Part shown: positions 25,269-30,701 of the stretch, one piece after another
How positions within the stretch are numbered: the first letter of the stretch is position 1
Layout: every line of letters starts with the position of its first letter
Assembly: GCF_900107665.1 (NCBI RefSeq)
Contig: NZ_FNQT01000001.1
Span: 784,398-848,397, forward strand
DNA length: 64,000 bases
Direction: 5' to 3'
DNA from: Haloplanus vescus
GTDB taxonomy: Archaea > Halobacteriota > Halobacteria > Halobacteriales > Haloferacaceae
Translations under genes and position numbers: made by a program
The notes under the pieces: model-generated
Database searches by the model: none
What the model saw: only the letters and a program-made list of their open reading frames with translations
What the model was told of the DNA's origin: nothing

Positions 25269-25940
25269 ATGCGCTACCCCCGCGACGACCCGGGTCACGA
25301 CCGGGTGGCGACTGTCGACATCGAGACGACGGCGACCGACCCCGACGCGGGCGAACTCGTCTCCGTCGGCGTCGGTATCCACGACCGGGGCGACCCCCTG
25401 ACCGACGCGACCTACGAGACCTTCCACCGTCGCGGCGACGGCGAAGCGGCGCTTGTCGCTCGCGCGATGTCGCGGCTCGACGACGCCGGCGTCGACCGCC
25501 TCGTCACCTACAACGGCGCGGAGTTCGACCTTCCCTTCCTGACGGACCGCCTCGACCGACTGGGCGCGACGGTCGACTGGCCGCCGGTGACCGAGCCACC
25601 GGCCCACCTCGACCTCTTTCTCGACCGGAAGGAGCGAGCGGAGCGCGAGGGGAGCAAGTGGCCGACGCTCGAAGCCTGTCTGGAGGCGTACGGCCACGCG
25701 CCGGCGACGACTCGCTGGCGCGGCGCACCGCTCACGAACGGGCGCTTCGGCGAGGAACTCGGCCCGGCGTATCTCCGGACGCTCGGCACCGAGACGGGCG
25801 GGCGCTTTCGCGAGCGTCTGACCGAGGTGATGGACCACTACCTGACCGGCGACCTGGAGGCGACGCTCGCACTCTTCTACGCCGACGTTGGCGTCGACGT
25901 GACCGGTCGGTATCTGGGGACCGAGACGAACTTCGATTAA
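25269..25940 (+). CDS. DEDD-family 3'-5' exonuclease (RNase H fold)
   Basis: 223 residues. ExoI motif DIET (about 17-20), ExoII YNGAEFDLPFL, and ExoIII-like HYLTGDLEATLALFY carry the acidic metal ligands, so the fold and activity seem intact. Similar haloarchaeal proteins are annotated as ribonuclease H-like. Whether it acts on DNA or RNA is unknown. ATG 25269 is preferred over a long upstream extension. Its TAA stop overlaps the convergent oxidoreductase stop in TTAA. Confidence 0.84.
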   Translation: MRYPRDDPGHDRVATVDIETTATDPDAGELVSVGVGIHDRGDPLTDATYETFHRRGDGEAALVARAMSRLDDAGVDRLVTYNGAEFDLPFLTDRLDRLGATVDWPPVTEPPAHLDLFLDRKERAEREGSKWPTLEACLEAYGHAPATTRWRGAPLTNGRFGEELGPAYLRTLGTETGGRFRERLTEVMDHYLTGDLEATLALFYADVGVDVTGRYLGTETNFD

Positions 25941-27220
25941 GCCGCGTCGTCAAGGACGGCCTCGGCGGCCTCGCGACCGCTCCGCATCGCACCCTGAATC
26001 GACGACCACGCGGTGTAGTCGCCGGCGAGGTAGACGGCGCCAGCCGGGTCGCGGGCGTCGGGCAAGTCGTCGTGGACGCCCGGCGACTGGTCGAACTGCG
26101 CGAACTCGATGCGGTCGGTGTGGAGGTGTTCGACGTCGTCGAACAGTCGGTCGGGGTACCACGCGTCGAGGGCGTCGCGCGTCGCGGCGAACAGGTCGTC
26201 GTCGCTCGCATCGAGCGGTTTCGGTGCGTCCGGGCCGTCGAGGAACGTGGCGGCGAGGAGGTGACGGTCGTCGGGAGCGTACGACGGTGCGACGGCGGAG
26301 AGGGGCGCGACGACGTTCGGCCGCGGCCCGTCGACGTTCAGGTGGATTTTCTTGCCGTCGACGGGCGTCTCGGTGGCGCAGGAGAGCGTGACGGCGGAGC
26401 GAGCGGCGGTCGGAATCGACGCCACGCCGGTGAGTCGGCGGGCCGTCCGAGGGTCGGTGGCGACGACGACGGCGTCGTACTCGCCCGTCCGCGCCTCGCT
26501 CTCGACGGTCACCCGACCGTCGTCGGGCGTAACCGCCGCGACGGCCTCGTTGAGGCGGACTGTCGCGCCGGCCTCGCGGGCACGAGCGGCCAACTGGGCC
26601 GGGACGGCGCCCATCCCCTCTGCGGGGAGCGCGACTCGGCCCTCGCTCATCGCCTTGAACGTGTACTCGAAGACGCGTTTCGACGTGGCGAGCGAGCGGT
26701 CGAGCGTGATGCCACCGTAGAAGGGAGCGACGAAGTTGTCGATGTAGTCGTCGGAGAAGCCCCAGTCGCGGAGGTACTCGTCGATGGGGGCGTCCGGGCT
26801 GTCGAAAATCTCCGCTTCGGTCTGGCTGCCGACGTGTTGGCGGAGCGCGAGCGTCCGGAGTTTGTCGGTGGTCGTCACCTCGCGATTGAACAGCGTCTCG
26901 GTGAGCGCGAACGGGTCGCGCAGGGGGTCGGAGAGGACCGAGCGCTCGCCGGGGCGGGCGATGACCGCGCCGGGCGAGAACGAGTGCAGGTCCAGCGCGT
27001 CGAGGTCGAGTTCGCGCCTGACGGCGGGATAGGCGGTGAAGAGCACCTGAAACCCGCGGTCGAGGGTGAAGCCGTCGCGGTGGCGGGTACGGACGCGTCC
27101 GCCCACGTCGTCGCGACGCTCGAAGACGGTCACGTCGGCGCCCGCGCCGGCGAGGTGGCGAGCTGCGACGAGGCCGGCGAGTCCCGCGCCGACGACGGCG
27201 ACCGATGATGAGTCGTCCAT
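25937..27220 (-). CDS. FAD-dependent amine-oxidase-like oxidoreductase
   Basis: 427 residues of the phytoene desaturase/protoporphyrinogen oxidase superfamily. The dinucleotide motif GAGLAGLVAARHL is at about 11-23, followed by FERRDDVGGRVRT and DRGFQVLF; the C-terminal YLAGDYTAWSSIQGAMRSG is the FAD-closing motif. No carotenoid genes are adjacent. Substrate is unknown. Complete and family-length. Confidence 0.87.
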   Translation of the reverse strand: MDDSSSVAVVGAGLAGLVAARHLAGAGADVTVFERRDDVGGRVRTRHRDGFTLDRGFQVLFTAYPAVRRELDLDALDLHSFSPGAVIARPGERSVLSDPLRDPFALTETLFNREVTTTDKLRTLALRQHVGSQTEAEIFDSPDAPIDEYLRDWGFSDDYIDNFVAPFYGGITLDRSLATSKRVFEYTFKAMSEGRVALPAEGMGAVPAQLAARAREAGATVRLNEAVAAVTPDDGRVTVESEARTGEYDAVVVATDPRTARRLTGVASIPTAARSAVTLSCATETPVDGKKIHLNVDGPRPNVVAPLSAVAPSYAPDDRHLLAATFLDGPDAPKPLDASDDDLFAATRDALDAWYPDRLFDDVEHLHTDRIEFAQFDQSPGVHDDLPDARDPAGAVYLAGDYTAWSSIQGAMRSGREAAEAVLDDAA

Positions 27221-27298: not shown

Positions 27299-28465
27299 AT
27301 GCACACCTCCGACGCGTTCGTCGGCCTCGACTGTACGGCGACCGGCGACCGATACGACCCGGACCACGTCGGGCGGAGCGACGCCGGCGCACCGCTCGAC
27401 CCCGTCTACGACCTCGACGCCGTCTCGACGCTGCCGACCGACCCCGACTCGATGTGGGCGTACGACGCGCTCTTGCCCGTGCCCGAATCGCAGGCCGTCT
27501 CCGCGGGCGAGGGCGCGACGCCGCTTCTCGACGCCGACGGCCTCGCCGCCGACCTCGGCGTCGACGGCGTGTTGCTCAAAGACGAGGGCCGAAATCCGAC
27601 CGGGAGCGTCCTCGACCGGGGGCTGTCGGTCGCGGTGACGATGGCGCGCGCCCACGACGCCGACCTGTTGGCGCTCGCGGCGCCGGGCGACGCGGGGCAG
27701 TCCGCGGCCGCCTACGCGGGCCGAATCGACGCTGACTGTTACGCCTACCTGCCCTCGCGAGCGCCCTTCCCGAACAAGGCGATGGTGAACGTCCACGGCG
27801 CGGACATGCGGGTGATCGGTGGGCGCTTCCCGGACGCGCTGGACGCCCTCGAATCCGACCTCCAGCGGGAGTGGTACTCGCTCCAAGAGTTCACGACGCC
27901 GTTCCGCCACGACGGGGCGAAGACGCTGGCGTACGAGGTGGCCGCGGCCCGCGACTGGACCGCGCCCGATGCCGCCGTCGTCGCCGTGGGCACGGGCGAG
28001 ACGCTCGCCGGCGTCGCGCAGGGGTTCCGTGACCTCGTCGCCCTCGGCCTGACCGACCGGGTACCGCGGTGTTACGCCGTCCAACCGGAGGGGTGTGCGC
28101 CCGTCGTCGAAGCCCACGACGCCGGCGCGGAGGCCGTCTCGGCGGTGGAGTACCCCGACACCATCTGTGGCGAACTCGAAATCCCGGCCCCCGCGGGCGG
28201 GGCGCTGGCTCTCGACGCCGTCGAGGAGACGGCGGGCGGTGCCGTCGCCGTGAGCGACGACGACATCCTCGAGAGCGCCGTCGCACTCACCCAGCGACTC
28301 GGGACGGAAGTCGGCGCGGTGGGCGGCGCGGCGGCGGCGGGCGCGTGGTCGCTCGCGGAACGCGGCGACCTGACCGACGACGACACCGTACTCCTCCTCA
28401 ACGCGGACGCAGGCGTCAAGACGGCCGACGTCCTCCGAAGTCACCTGATGGGACAGGGCGTCTAA
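27299..28465 (+). CDS. threonine-synthase-like fold-type II protein lacking the PLP lysine
   Basis: 388 residues aligned throughout with threonine synthases: GEGATPLLDADGL, LLKDEGRNPTGS, GQSAAAYAGR, LLNADAGVKT. But the lysine that forms the PLP Schiff base (NPTGSFKDRG in active enzymes) is leucine here: NPTGSVLDRG at 99-108, with Leu105. The PLP-contacting loop usually S/T-GNAGQ reads APGDAGQ (128-134), losing the asparagine. The reading frame is intact with normal codon use, so it is maintained as a protein. It is probably not a threonine synthase; regulatory or pseudoenzyme role is inference. Confidence 0.85.
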   Translation: MHTSDAFVGLDCTATGDRYDPDHVGRSDAGAPLDPVYDLDAVSTLPTDPDSMWAYDALLPVPESQAVSAGEGATPLLDADGLAADLGVDGVLLKDEGRNPTGSVLDRGLSVAVTMARAHDADLLALAAPGDAGQSAAAYAGRIDADCYAYLPSRAPFPNKAMVNVHGADMRVIGGRFPDALDALESDLQREWYSLQEFTTPFRHDGAKTLAYEVAAARDWTAPDAAVVAVGTGETLAGVAQGFRDLVALGLTDRVPRCYAVQPEGCAPVVEAHDAGAEAVSAVEYPDTICGELEIPAPAGGALALDAVEETAGGAVAVSDDDILESAVALTQRLGTEVGAVGGAAAAGAWSLAERGDLTDDDTVLLLNADAGVKTADVLRSHLMGQGV

Positions 28466-28509: not shown

Positions 28510-28522
28510 TTCGGAGTACGTG

Positions 28523-29224
28523 ATGCTAAGCGACGCCATGGAGGACTATCTCAAGGCCATCTACCGGCTACAGGCGGAGGGAGGCGTGCCGGTAGCCACC
28601 TCGGCCATCGCCGACGAGGTGGAGAAGACGGCGCCGACGGTGACGAGCATGGTCCAGAAACTCGCCGACCGGGGGCTCGTCGAGCGAGAGAAGTACAAGG
28701 GCGTCGAACTCACGCCGGAGGGCGAGACGGTGGCGCTGGAGGTGCTCCGCCACCACCGACTCCTCGAGGCGTATCTCACCGAGCATCTGGACTACTCGTG
28801 GACGAACGTCCACGACGAGGCCGACGCGCTCGAACACCACATCTCCGAGGAGTTCGAGCGTCGGCTGGCGGAGGCGCTCGGCGACCCCGAAGTCGACCCT
28901 CACGGCGACCCGATACCCTGTGCGGACCTCAAGCCGCTGGAGCACGACGACACGACGCCCCTGAGCGACCACGGGGCGGGCGAGCGCGTCGTCGTCAGTC
29001 GCGTCCGTGACCGGGACGAGGAGGAACTCGCCTACCTCGACGAGGCAGGCGTCCGACCGGGGACCGACCTCGAAATCGTCGACGTGGCGCCGTTCGGGAT
29101 GGTCACCGTTCGTATCGGTGACTCGGAGCAGAGCCTTCCCGAGTCGGTGGCGCGGACGATTCGCGTCCGCGCCGTCGGCGCCGAGGACAGCGACCCCGAA
29201 CCCGCGGAGGTGGGTGACGCATGA
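28523..29224 (+). CDS. DtxR/MntR-family metal-dependent transcriptional regulator
   Basis: 233 residues. N-terminal winged helix (about 1-65; SAIADEVEKTAPTVTSMVQKL is the recognition region), then the metal-binding dimer domain (about 65-140) with the histidine- and acid-rich EALEHH-type helix (DALEHHISEEFE), and a C-terminal FeoA/SH3-like domain (about 150-220). ATG 28523 is chosen over an adjacent GTG at 28520. Its stop overlaps the start of a GDT1 transporter by four bases, which suggests it controls manganese homeostasis. Confidence 0.88.
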   Translation: MLSDAMEDYLKAIYRLQAEGGVPVATSAIADEVEKTAPTVTSMVQKLADRGLVEREKYKGVELTPEGETVALEVLRHHRLLEAYLTEHLDYSWTNVHDEADALEHHISEEFERRLAEALGDPEVDPHGDPIPCADLKPLEHDDTTPLSDHGAGERVVVSRVRDRDEEELAYLDEAGVRPGTDLEIVDVAPFGMVTVRIGDSEQSLPESVARTIRVRAVGAEDSDPEPAEVGDA

Positions 29225-29931
29225 CGGGGTGGATGGAGATTCTCACCGTCGCCTTCGTTTCGCAGCTCGTGGTGTTGCCGGGCGAGAAGGTGCAGTTCAT
29301 CATCGCAGGGCTGGCGACGCGATACAATCCGCTCGTCGTCGTGAGCGCCGCGAGCGCCGCCTTTGCCGGGTGGACGGTGCTCGAAATCCTCTTCGGACAG
29401 GCGCTACAGAGCGCGCTCCCACCAGTCGTCCTCGACGCCCTGACCGCGGGCTTGTTTCTGCTCTTTGCCGTCCTCCTCTACCGCTCGGCGCCGTCGAGCG
29501 GCGACTGGGACCAGGTCGACCCGACGGCGACCGACGGCGGCATCACCTCGCTCGGCAGTGACTTCCAGCCGAAGGTGTTCGGCCGCGAACTCCCCGAGGT
29601 GTTCGGCGGCTTCTTCCCCATCTTCGCGATGATGGCCGCGGGCGAGTTCGGCGACAAGACCCAACTCGTCACCATCGGCCTCGCCGCCCAGTACGGCGCC
29701 CACCCGGCCATCTGGGCGGGCGAGATGCTCGCCATCGTCCCCGTGAGTCTCGCGAACGCCTACTTCAGCCACCGCTTCGCTCACCGCCTCAACATGCGAA
29801 CGGTCCACTTCTTCTCGGCGGGCCTGTTCGCGTTCTTCGCGACCGACACCGTGTTGAGTATCGTCACCGGCTTCTCCGTCTGGGAGACGGTGATAGAGGT
29901 GGTGTCCACCGCCGTGCTGTCGCTGGTGTGA
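29221..29931 (+). CDS. GDT1/TMEM165 (UPF0016) cation transporter, probable Mn exporter
   Basis: 236 residues, six to seven hydrophobic segments in two repeats. The second repeat holds the transport motif E-x-G-D-K-T (EFGDKT, 142-147). The first repeat has only LPGEKV (19-24): the leading acidic residue is Leu, and Asp-Lys-Thr/Ser becomes Glu-Lys-Val. Family members move Mn2+/Ca2+ against H+. Translational overlap with the DtxR-type regulator supports manganese. Confidence 0.85.
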   Translation: MTGWMEILTVAFVSQLVVLPGEKVQFIIAGLATRYNPLVVVSAASAAFAGWTVLEILFGQALQSALPPVVLDALTAGLFLLFAVLLYRSAPSSGDWDQVDPTATDGGITSLGSDFQPKVFGRELPEVFGGFFPIFAMMAAGEFGDKTQLVTIGLAAQYGAHPAIWAGEMLAIVPVSLANAYFSHRFAHRLNMRTVHFFSAGLFAFFATDTVLSIVTGFSVWETVIEVVSTAVLSLV

Positions 29932-30005: not shown

Positions 30006-30701
30006 GTGAACCCCCTCCCGTCGCTCTTTGCCGGCGCGGTCTTCGGCCTCGCTCTCGCGGCGCCGCCGGGACCGATGAACGCCGTCATCGCAGAGGAATC
30101 GGTTACCAACGGCTGGCTGGCCGGCGTCCGGGCCGGCCTCGGTGCGATGACCGCCGACGCCGTCTTCCTCATCGGGTCGCTCCTCGGCGTCGTCGCCTTC
30201 GTGGACCGCTTTCCGACGGTCCGAGCGGCGATGGTCGGCGTTGGCGGCCTGCTGATGTGCTATTTCGCCTACGGAGCGGCGCTCGACGCCCTCGACGAGG
30301 CGTCGCTCGTCCCCAGCGGCGCCGCTGACGGCACCGCCGACCGGGCCGCGACCGGCTTCCGGAAAGCGTTCGTCCTCGCGCTCACCAACCCCTATCAAGT
30401 CCTGTTCTGGCTCACCATCGGCGTGGGCCTCCTGCGACCCGGCACCCTCGACGTGCTGTCGTACACGCCGTACGTGGGCGCCGACCTCGCCGGTCTGCTC
30501 GTCGTCCGCACCGGGAGCCCGGCGCTCATCGTCGGCTTCTTCGCCGGCATCGGCGTCTGGATAACGGGCTTCCCGGCGACGCTCCGGGCGGCCCAGCGCC
30601 GCGTCGCCGCCTTCGCACCGGTCGTCTCGGGCGTGAGTGCTCTCGTTCTCGCCGGGTTCGGCGTGCTCTTTCTCGTCGATGCCGTGCGGACGCTGCTCTG
30701 A
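30006..30701 (+). CDS. LysE-family amino acid/metabolite exporter
   Basis: 231 residues with about six hydrophobic segments. The N-terminal GLALAAPPGPMNAV is the LysE/RhtB family motif. A second family block is ALTNPYQVLFWLTIGVGL in the middle. Start is GTG 30006. Located 75 nt after the GDT1 gene; it might be in the same transcript but has its own room for a promoter. Substrate cannot be determined. Confidence 0.82.
   Translation: MNPLPSLFAGAVFGLALAAPPGPMNAVIAEESVTNGWLAGVRAGLGAMTADAVFLIGSLLGVVAFVDRFPTVRAAMVGVGGLLMCYFAYGAALDALDEASLVPSGAADGTADRAATGFRKAFVLALTNPYQVLFWLTIGVGLLRPGTLDVLSYTPYVGADLAGLLVVRTGSPALIVGFFAGIGVWITGFPATLRAAQRRVAAFAPVVSGVSALVLAGFGVLFLVDAVRTLL

Follow-up and report, generated by a model that had tools for sequence, protein, structure and literature searches.

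Pseudoenzymes from PLP-dependent families appear to be little described and are usually single paralogues. In the open-licence literature searched, the only lysine-less or inactive PLP protein found was the plant TSB-like pseudoenzyme, a non-catalytic descendant of a fold-type-II PLP enzyme that is kept for regulation; two of its key residues are changed, and it activates TSA allosterically (PMC12727527). It derives from another enzyme, tryptophan synthase beta, and the paper does not describe a PLP lysine lost again and again from orthologues at one locus (PMC12727527). It is a precedent for a regulatory role within the fold class. No description of a lysine-less threonine-synthase-like family as a pseudoenzyme was found in the same searched literature. 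Among threonine synthases, the haloarchaeal PRK08197 (NF006050) orthologues that bear the PLP lysine, here called K-type, share with the protein studied here their locus, length, fold type II, and the NPTG-x-x-DRG and GN-x-x-Q loops, and the examples compared were 49-54% identical to it. In contrast to these K-type proteins, it lacks the PLP lysine, the GGVG phosphate loop, and the zinc-ribbon cysteines, carries E234 and E292, and scores under the family cut-off. Canonical ThrC from the same genome shares the fold at about 31% identity.

The gene lies in a 64,000-nucleotide window, which is the whole stretch of Haloplanus vescus DNA analysed. It and its main sites are as follows.

27299..28465, + strand: lysine-less threonine-synthase-like gene, open frame of 388 aa, with Pfam PALP, PRK08197, and AlphaFold fold matches
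27593..27622, + strand: NPTGSVLDRG, residues 99-108, the former PLP-lysine motif, with the Leu105 codon CTC at 27611-27613
27683..27697, + strand: PGDAG, residues 129-133, the asparagine loop, in which D131 has changed locally (58/64 Haloferacaceae relatives have N)
27983..28012, + strand: AVGTGETLAG, residues 229-238, an altered PLP-phosphate loop that has T232 and Glu234 where the K-type PTGGGVGLVG has Gly and Val
28172..28174, + strand: Glu292 in GELEI, the second newly invariant acidic residue (E in 64/64, vs Gly in 61/61 K-type rows)
28418..28462, + strand: C-terminal tail KTADVLRSHLMGQGV, better conserved than in K-type proteins

The gene encodes a complete protein of fold type II that belongs to the PRK08197 lineage of threonine synthases. 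As the first-pass annotation had claimed, its frame is open and aligns with threonine synthase along its length: the translation on the + strand starts MHTSDAF and runs uninterrupted, and PRK08197 threonine synthase, the best curated NCBIfam family, covered residues 8-381. The match to Pfam PALP (PF00291) was 7.1e-62, placing the protein in the PLP fold-type II superfamily. The PRK08197 score of 273 bits fell below the equivalog cut-off of 303 bits; other Haloferacaceae proteins scored 297 and 259, and K-type proteins 381-386. With the thrC model (TIGR00260), the protein scored 120.5 against a cut-off of 167.1, whereas the canonical ThrC passed (292 vs 167) and keeps NPTG(S/A)FKDRG. An AlphaFold model made from a 31-row family alignment reached pLDDT 89 and pTM 0.90, and its top structural matches were threonine synthases (VIA Z 46.9 against Arabidopsis 2c2b, rmsd 2.4 A over 380 residues).

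The position that is lysine in the Haloplanus ThrC paralogue and in solved threonine synthases (NPTGSFKDRG) is Leu105 in the window protein, in agreement with the first-pass annotation. The nearest named records were from Haloplanus, at 78-79% identity. The gene was present without the lysine in all 12 Haloplanus genomes, with Leu in 11 and Phe in one, and none of the 57 distinct native-locus Haloferacaceae rows had K at the site. A sequencing error or recent mutation was thereby ruled out. Leu itself is not the selected residue, as relatives have L, H, Y, V, F, I, T, A, R, D, G, or Q at position 105; because it takes at least 12 residues other than K across lineages, no substitute catalytic residue has been fixed. 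Around it, N99, P100, T101, D106, R107, G108, G130, and Q134 were invariant in 64 Haloferacaceae rows, none of which had K at position 105. Over 199 rows, a set that takes in outgroup paralogues, the site was L in 72, K in 68, A in 15, T in 14, V in 10, R in 6, H and Y in 4 each, and D in 2, with singletons making up the rest. Alignment across the family thus supports an ancient and fixed lysine-less state in Haloferacaceae.

The first-pass annotation had listed two lost PLP contacts, the lysine and the PGDAG loop. The first of these stands; PGDAG is indeed present, but PGD is not conserved and is only a local change. The family-wide second lesion, which had gone unlisted, lies at residues 231-235, which we take to be the PLP-phosphate binder because of how these residues align with threonine synthases of solved structure and of what is generally known about the fold. 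In this loop, K-type GGGVG (61/61 at each compared site) has become (G/S)TGE in Haloferacaceae: position 232 is T or S in 64/64 Haloferacaceae rows vs G in 61/61 K-type rows, and position 234 is E in 64/64 vs V in 61/61. The window protein reads GTGET here, compared with GGGVG in K-type proteins and GNAGN in ThrC and the solved structures, and so lacks the glycine-rich phosphate loop. The mean entropy of the C-terminal tail was 0.33 bits in Haloferacaceae vs 0.94 bits in K-type proteins. The N-terminal zinc-ribbon cysteines CxxC...CxxC (window 27299-27410) were found in 59/61 K-type rows, 0/12 Haloplanus, and 16/50 Haloferacaceae rows.

A family-profile search gave a match in 288 of 292 Halobacteria genomes at E <= 1e-90. 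K-type carriers were Halobacterium, Halorussus, Haladaptatus, Halostella, Halalkalicoccus, Halorarius, and part of Natrialbaceae; lysine-less carriers were all sampled Haloferacaceae, the other part of Natrialbaceae (Natrinema, Natronorubrum, and others), and further families. The earlier note had held that lysine retention by relatives would mark a recent mutation or error. Haloferacaceae relatives lack the lysine, whereas the lysine is present in positional orthologues from farther away, among them those of Halobacterium, Halorussus, and Halalkalicoccus. The window genes next to the threonine-synthase-like gene are listed below.

25937..27220, - strand: FAD amine-oxidase-family gene, the conserved divergent neighbour (PF01593, 2.1e-60)
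28520..29224, + strand: DtxR/SirR metal-dependent regulator, downstream (PF02742, PF01325, PF04023)
29221..29931, + strand: GDT1-type divalent cation/proton antiporter (PF01169, 1.5e-31), with a 4-base overlap with the DtxR/SirR gene
30006..30701, + strand: LysE-type exporter of amino acids, with downstream linkage in many families (PF01810, 1e-21)

Neighbour genes were compared by tblastn with the window genes. K-type and lysine-less loci had a common neighbourhood of eIF2-alpha, PAC2, DnaJ, the divergent FAD amine oxidase, and the threonine-synthase-like gene, often followed by DtxR/SirR plus GDT1, and then LysE, as in Halobacterium (K), genome G172 (K), Haloferax (L), and groups f3 (A), f8, and f9 (both K). 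Because they share neighbours, the two kinds of gene are positional orthologues; two ancient paralogue groups at separate loci were ruled out for the native gene, since the neighbours are shared irrespective of K. In Haloferacaceae and some Halobacterium, the DtxR/SirR and GDT1 genes (28520-29931) lie between the threonine-synthase-like gene and LysE, probably as one operon. In addition to the native lysine-less gene, Halorubrum and several other Haloferacaceae have a K-type copy elsewhere in the genome, at an unrelated locus, which was apparently either acquired or moved there. A same-strand LysE gene was found within 5 kb downstream at 34/64 lysine-less and 12/24 K loci; thus, where the flank was long enough to tell, only about one locus in two shows this linkage, and most Halorubrum and Natrialbaceae have lost it.

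We mapped the native-locus K state on a species tree of concatenated RNA polymerase subunits (30 genomes, 1585 columns). Nine changes between K and non-K were obtained (bootstrap range 8-10), seven of which were forced by well-supported branches, so that the lysine was apparently lost repeatedly from a gene that was retained and vertically inherited. Such a history suggests that the lysine-bearing ancestor already had a selected role that did not depend on the lysine. Local gene replacement by K-type alleles at the locus is possible. An account with few true losses seems unlikely to us, albeit a serious alternative; in it, the lysine disappeared early, and a K-type version that either arose again once or came from a slow lineage spread between families by same-locus recombination. 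The gene tree speaks for it in that the K rows form one group (SH-aLRT 99), and the second K-type copies in Halorubrum and its relatives show that K-type genes move. However, the clustering of the slow K rows may be an artefact of the long lysine-less branches, AU tests did not reject the constraint of families as clades (f2 0.09, f3 0.11, f4 0.41, f7 0.13), and the neighbours are common to the loci whatever the K state. When the gene tree was rooted with outgroups, K was nested inside the lysine-less rows, possibly through long-branch attraction; rooting by outgroup residues gave nine sites in favour of K-type as ancestral and eight in favour of lysine-less. Two isolated lysines were also seen. 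Natrinema salsiterrestre has AAG (Lys) amid Natrinema relatives with ACG (Thr), in a lysine-less context, which is likely a single-base reversion, and genome G267 has a K beside a degenerate phosphate loop, PLEGTEG, which looks like a reversion as well.

Our best reading, with a probability of about 0.6, is that the protein is a pseudoenzyme with a rebuilt pocket and has a non-catalytic part in amino-acid homeostasis, as a regulator or partner. The gene is the haloarchaeal PRK08197-type threonine-synthase paralogue, nearly class-wide and at a single locus, whose function as a PLP enzyme would have been lost in this lineage. Without Lys105 no internal aldimine could form, and a Glu at position 234 of the phosphate loop is expected to make PLP binding less favourable. 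The pocket (N99-P100-T101, D106-R107-G108, G130-N-x-x-Q134, and the new E234 and E292) may instead bind a different small molecule, probably either an amino acid or an intermediate of biosynthesis. The protein may serve the homeostasis of threonine and homoserine by way of ThrC or of the linked LysE-type exporter. The LysE linkage is the main hint at the pathway and is suggestive rather than proof. Loss of an indispensable catalytic residue from a protein that is otherwise conserved and selected (omega 0.22; 288/292 genomes) is one mark of a pseudoenzyme, and we infer both this status and the ligand from sequence. The first-pass annotation had likewise proposed selection for a non-catalytic role, as a possible sensor, scaffold, or partner of an active synthase. 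The fixed lysine-less state, the intact gene, omega, and the ThrC alongside agree with that proposal, whereas the lysine kept by more distant positional orthologues speaks in part against it. A stronger version, which we put forward tentatively and at somewhat less than even odds, is that selection always acted on a function for which the PLP lysine was not needed, that orthologues at this one locus discarded the lysine some seven times or more, and that in Haloferacaceae the pocket was rebuilt (T232, E234, E292) for another ligand. If true, nature would have repeated at this locus the experiment of making a ligand-binding regulator out of an enzyme.

It is improbable that the protein is still a PLP enzyme that carries out a Lys105-independent reaction, with its PLP bound either non-covalently or by K94, K160, K208, or K374. 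The NPTG-x-x-DRG and GN-x-x-Q loops are almost invariant, and these four lysines, which are conserved in the lysine-less proteins, would allow a non-standard Schiff base or non-covalent PLP. In crystals, fold-type-II enzymes whose lysine has been mutated still retain PLP as external aldimines, and the entries 1d6s and 2tys were among the fold matches. Against this, the phosphate loop gained its Glu in every Haloferacaceae row, and position 105 is free to vary as described above. A replacement lysine was ruled out: no lysine was newly conserved across the 64 Haloferacaceae rows compared with the 61 K-type rows, and since every conserved lysine is equally conserved in K-type proteins, none of them is a replacement.

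The comparison of substitution rates proposed in the first-pass annotation indicated purifying selection on the pseudoenzyme candidate. Within Haloplanus, omega was 0.22 for the lysine-less gene, 0.14 for ThrC, and 0.26 for another lysine-bearing paralogue. Terminal branches relative to RNA polymerase were 7.3 for lysine-less rows vs 2.2 for K rows (about threefold; p = 1.7e-4). Taken together, these values indicate that the gene is less constrained than its enzyme relatives and yet clearly selected. Slow decay after loss of function, with the gene kept only by inertia, is very doubtful: the faster evolution, the occasional pseudogenes, and the zinc-ribbon cysteines lost in all 12 Haloplanus would fit it, but the gene persists in nearly all genomes with internal stops in none of about 150 listed rows, omega within Haloplanus is low, and the loss of the lysine was followed by fixation of two new acidic residues and of the C-terminal tail. 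Only two broken copies were seen, a pseudogene with three stops in genome G100 (Haloferacaceae) and a gene split by an apparent frameshift in genome G146, indicating that the gene is dispensable in some genomes.

A co-existing lysine-bearing paralogue, raised as a check in the earlier note, was present throughout: ThrC with NPTG(S/A)FKDRG occurred in 12/12 Haloplanus genomes, and a second lysine-bearing threonine-synthase-like protein (SPTGSFKDRG in the window's genome) was represented by eleven different rows from Haloplanus. Disruption of thrC3 (HVO_2969) by a transposon in Haloferax volcanii caused an auxotrophy relieved by Gly, Ser, and Thr (PMC4300041), so the other thrC paralogues do not fully replace thrC3. 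The lysine-less Haloferax gene sits between the FAD gene and the DtxR-type gene. Because HVO_0817 is a flavin amine oxidoreductase and SirR is HVO_0819 (PMC11349517), the lysine-less orthologue is most likely HVO_0818, a name not found in the open-licence literature searched. Since the orthologues at this locus include lysine-bearing as well as many lysine-less forms, Haloferax genetics offers a way to isolate the function that does not need the lysine: the gene is amenable there to deletion and complementation with K-type or lysine-less versions. Automatic 'threonine synthase' labels will often be wrong for the gene at this locus in haloarchaea. Further lysine-bearing threonine-synthase-like groups, with NPTGC(F/L)KDR in two haloarchaea and IPTGTFKARG in a more distant archaeon, were distinct both from ThrC and from the PRK08197 family with its lysine-less and K-type members.
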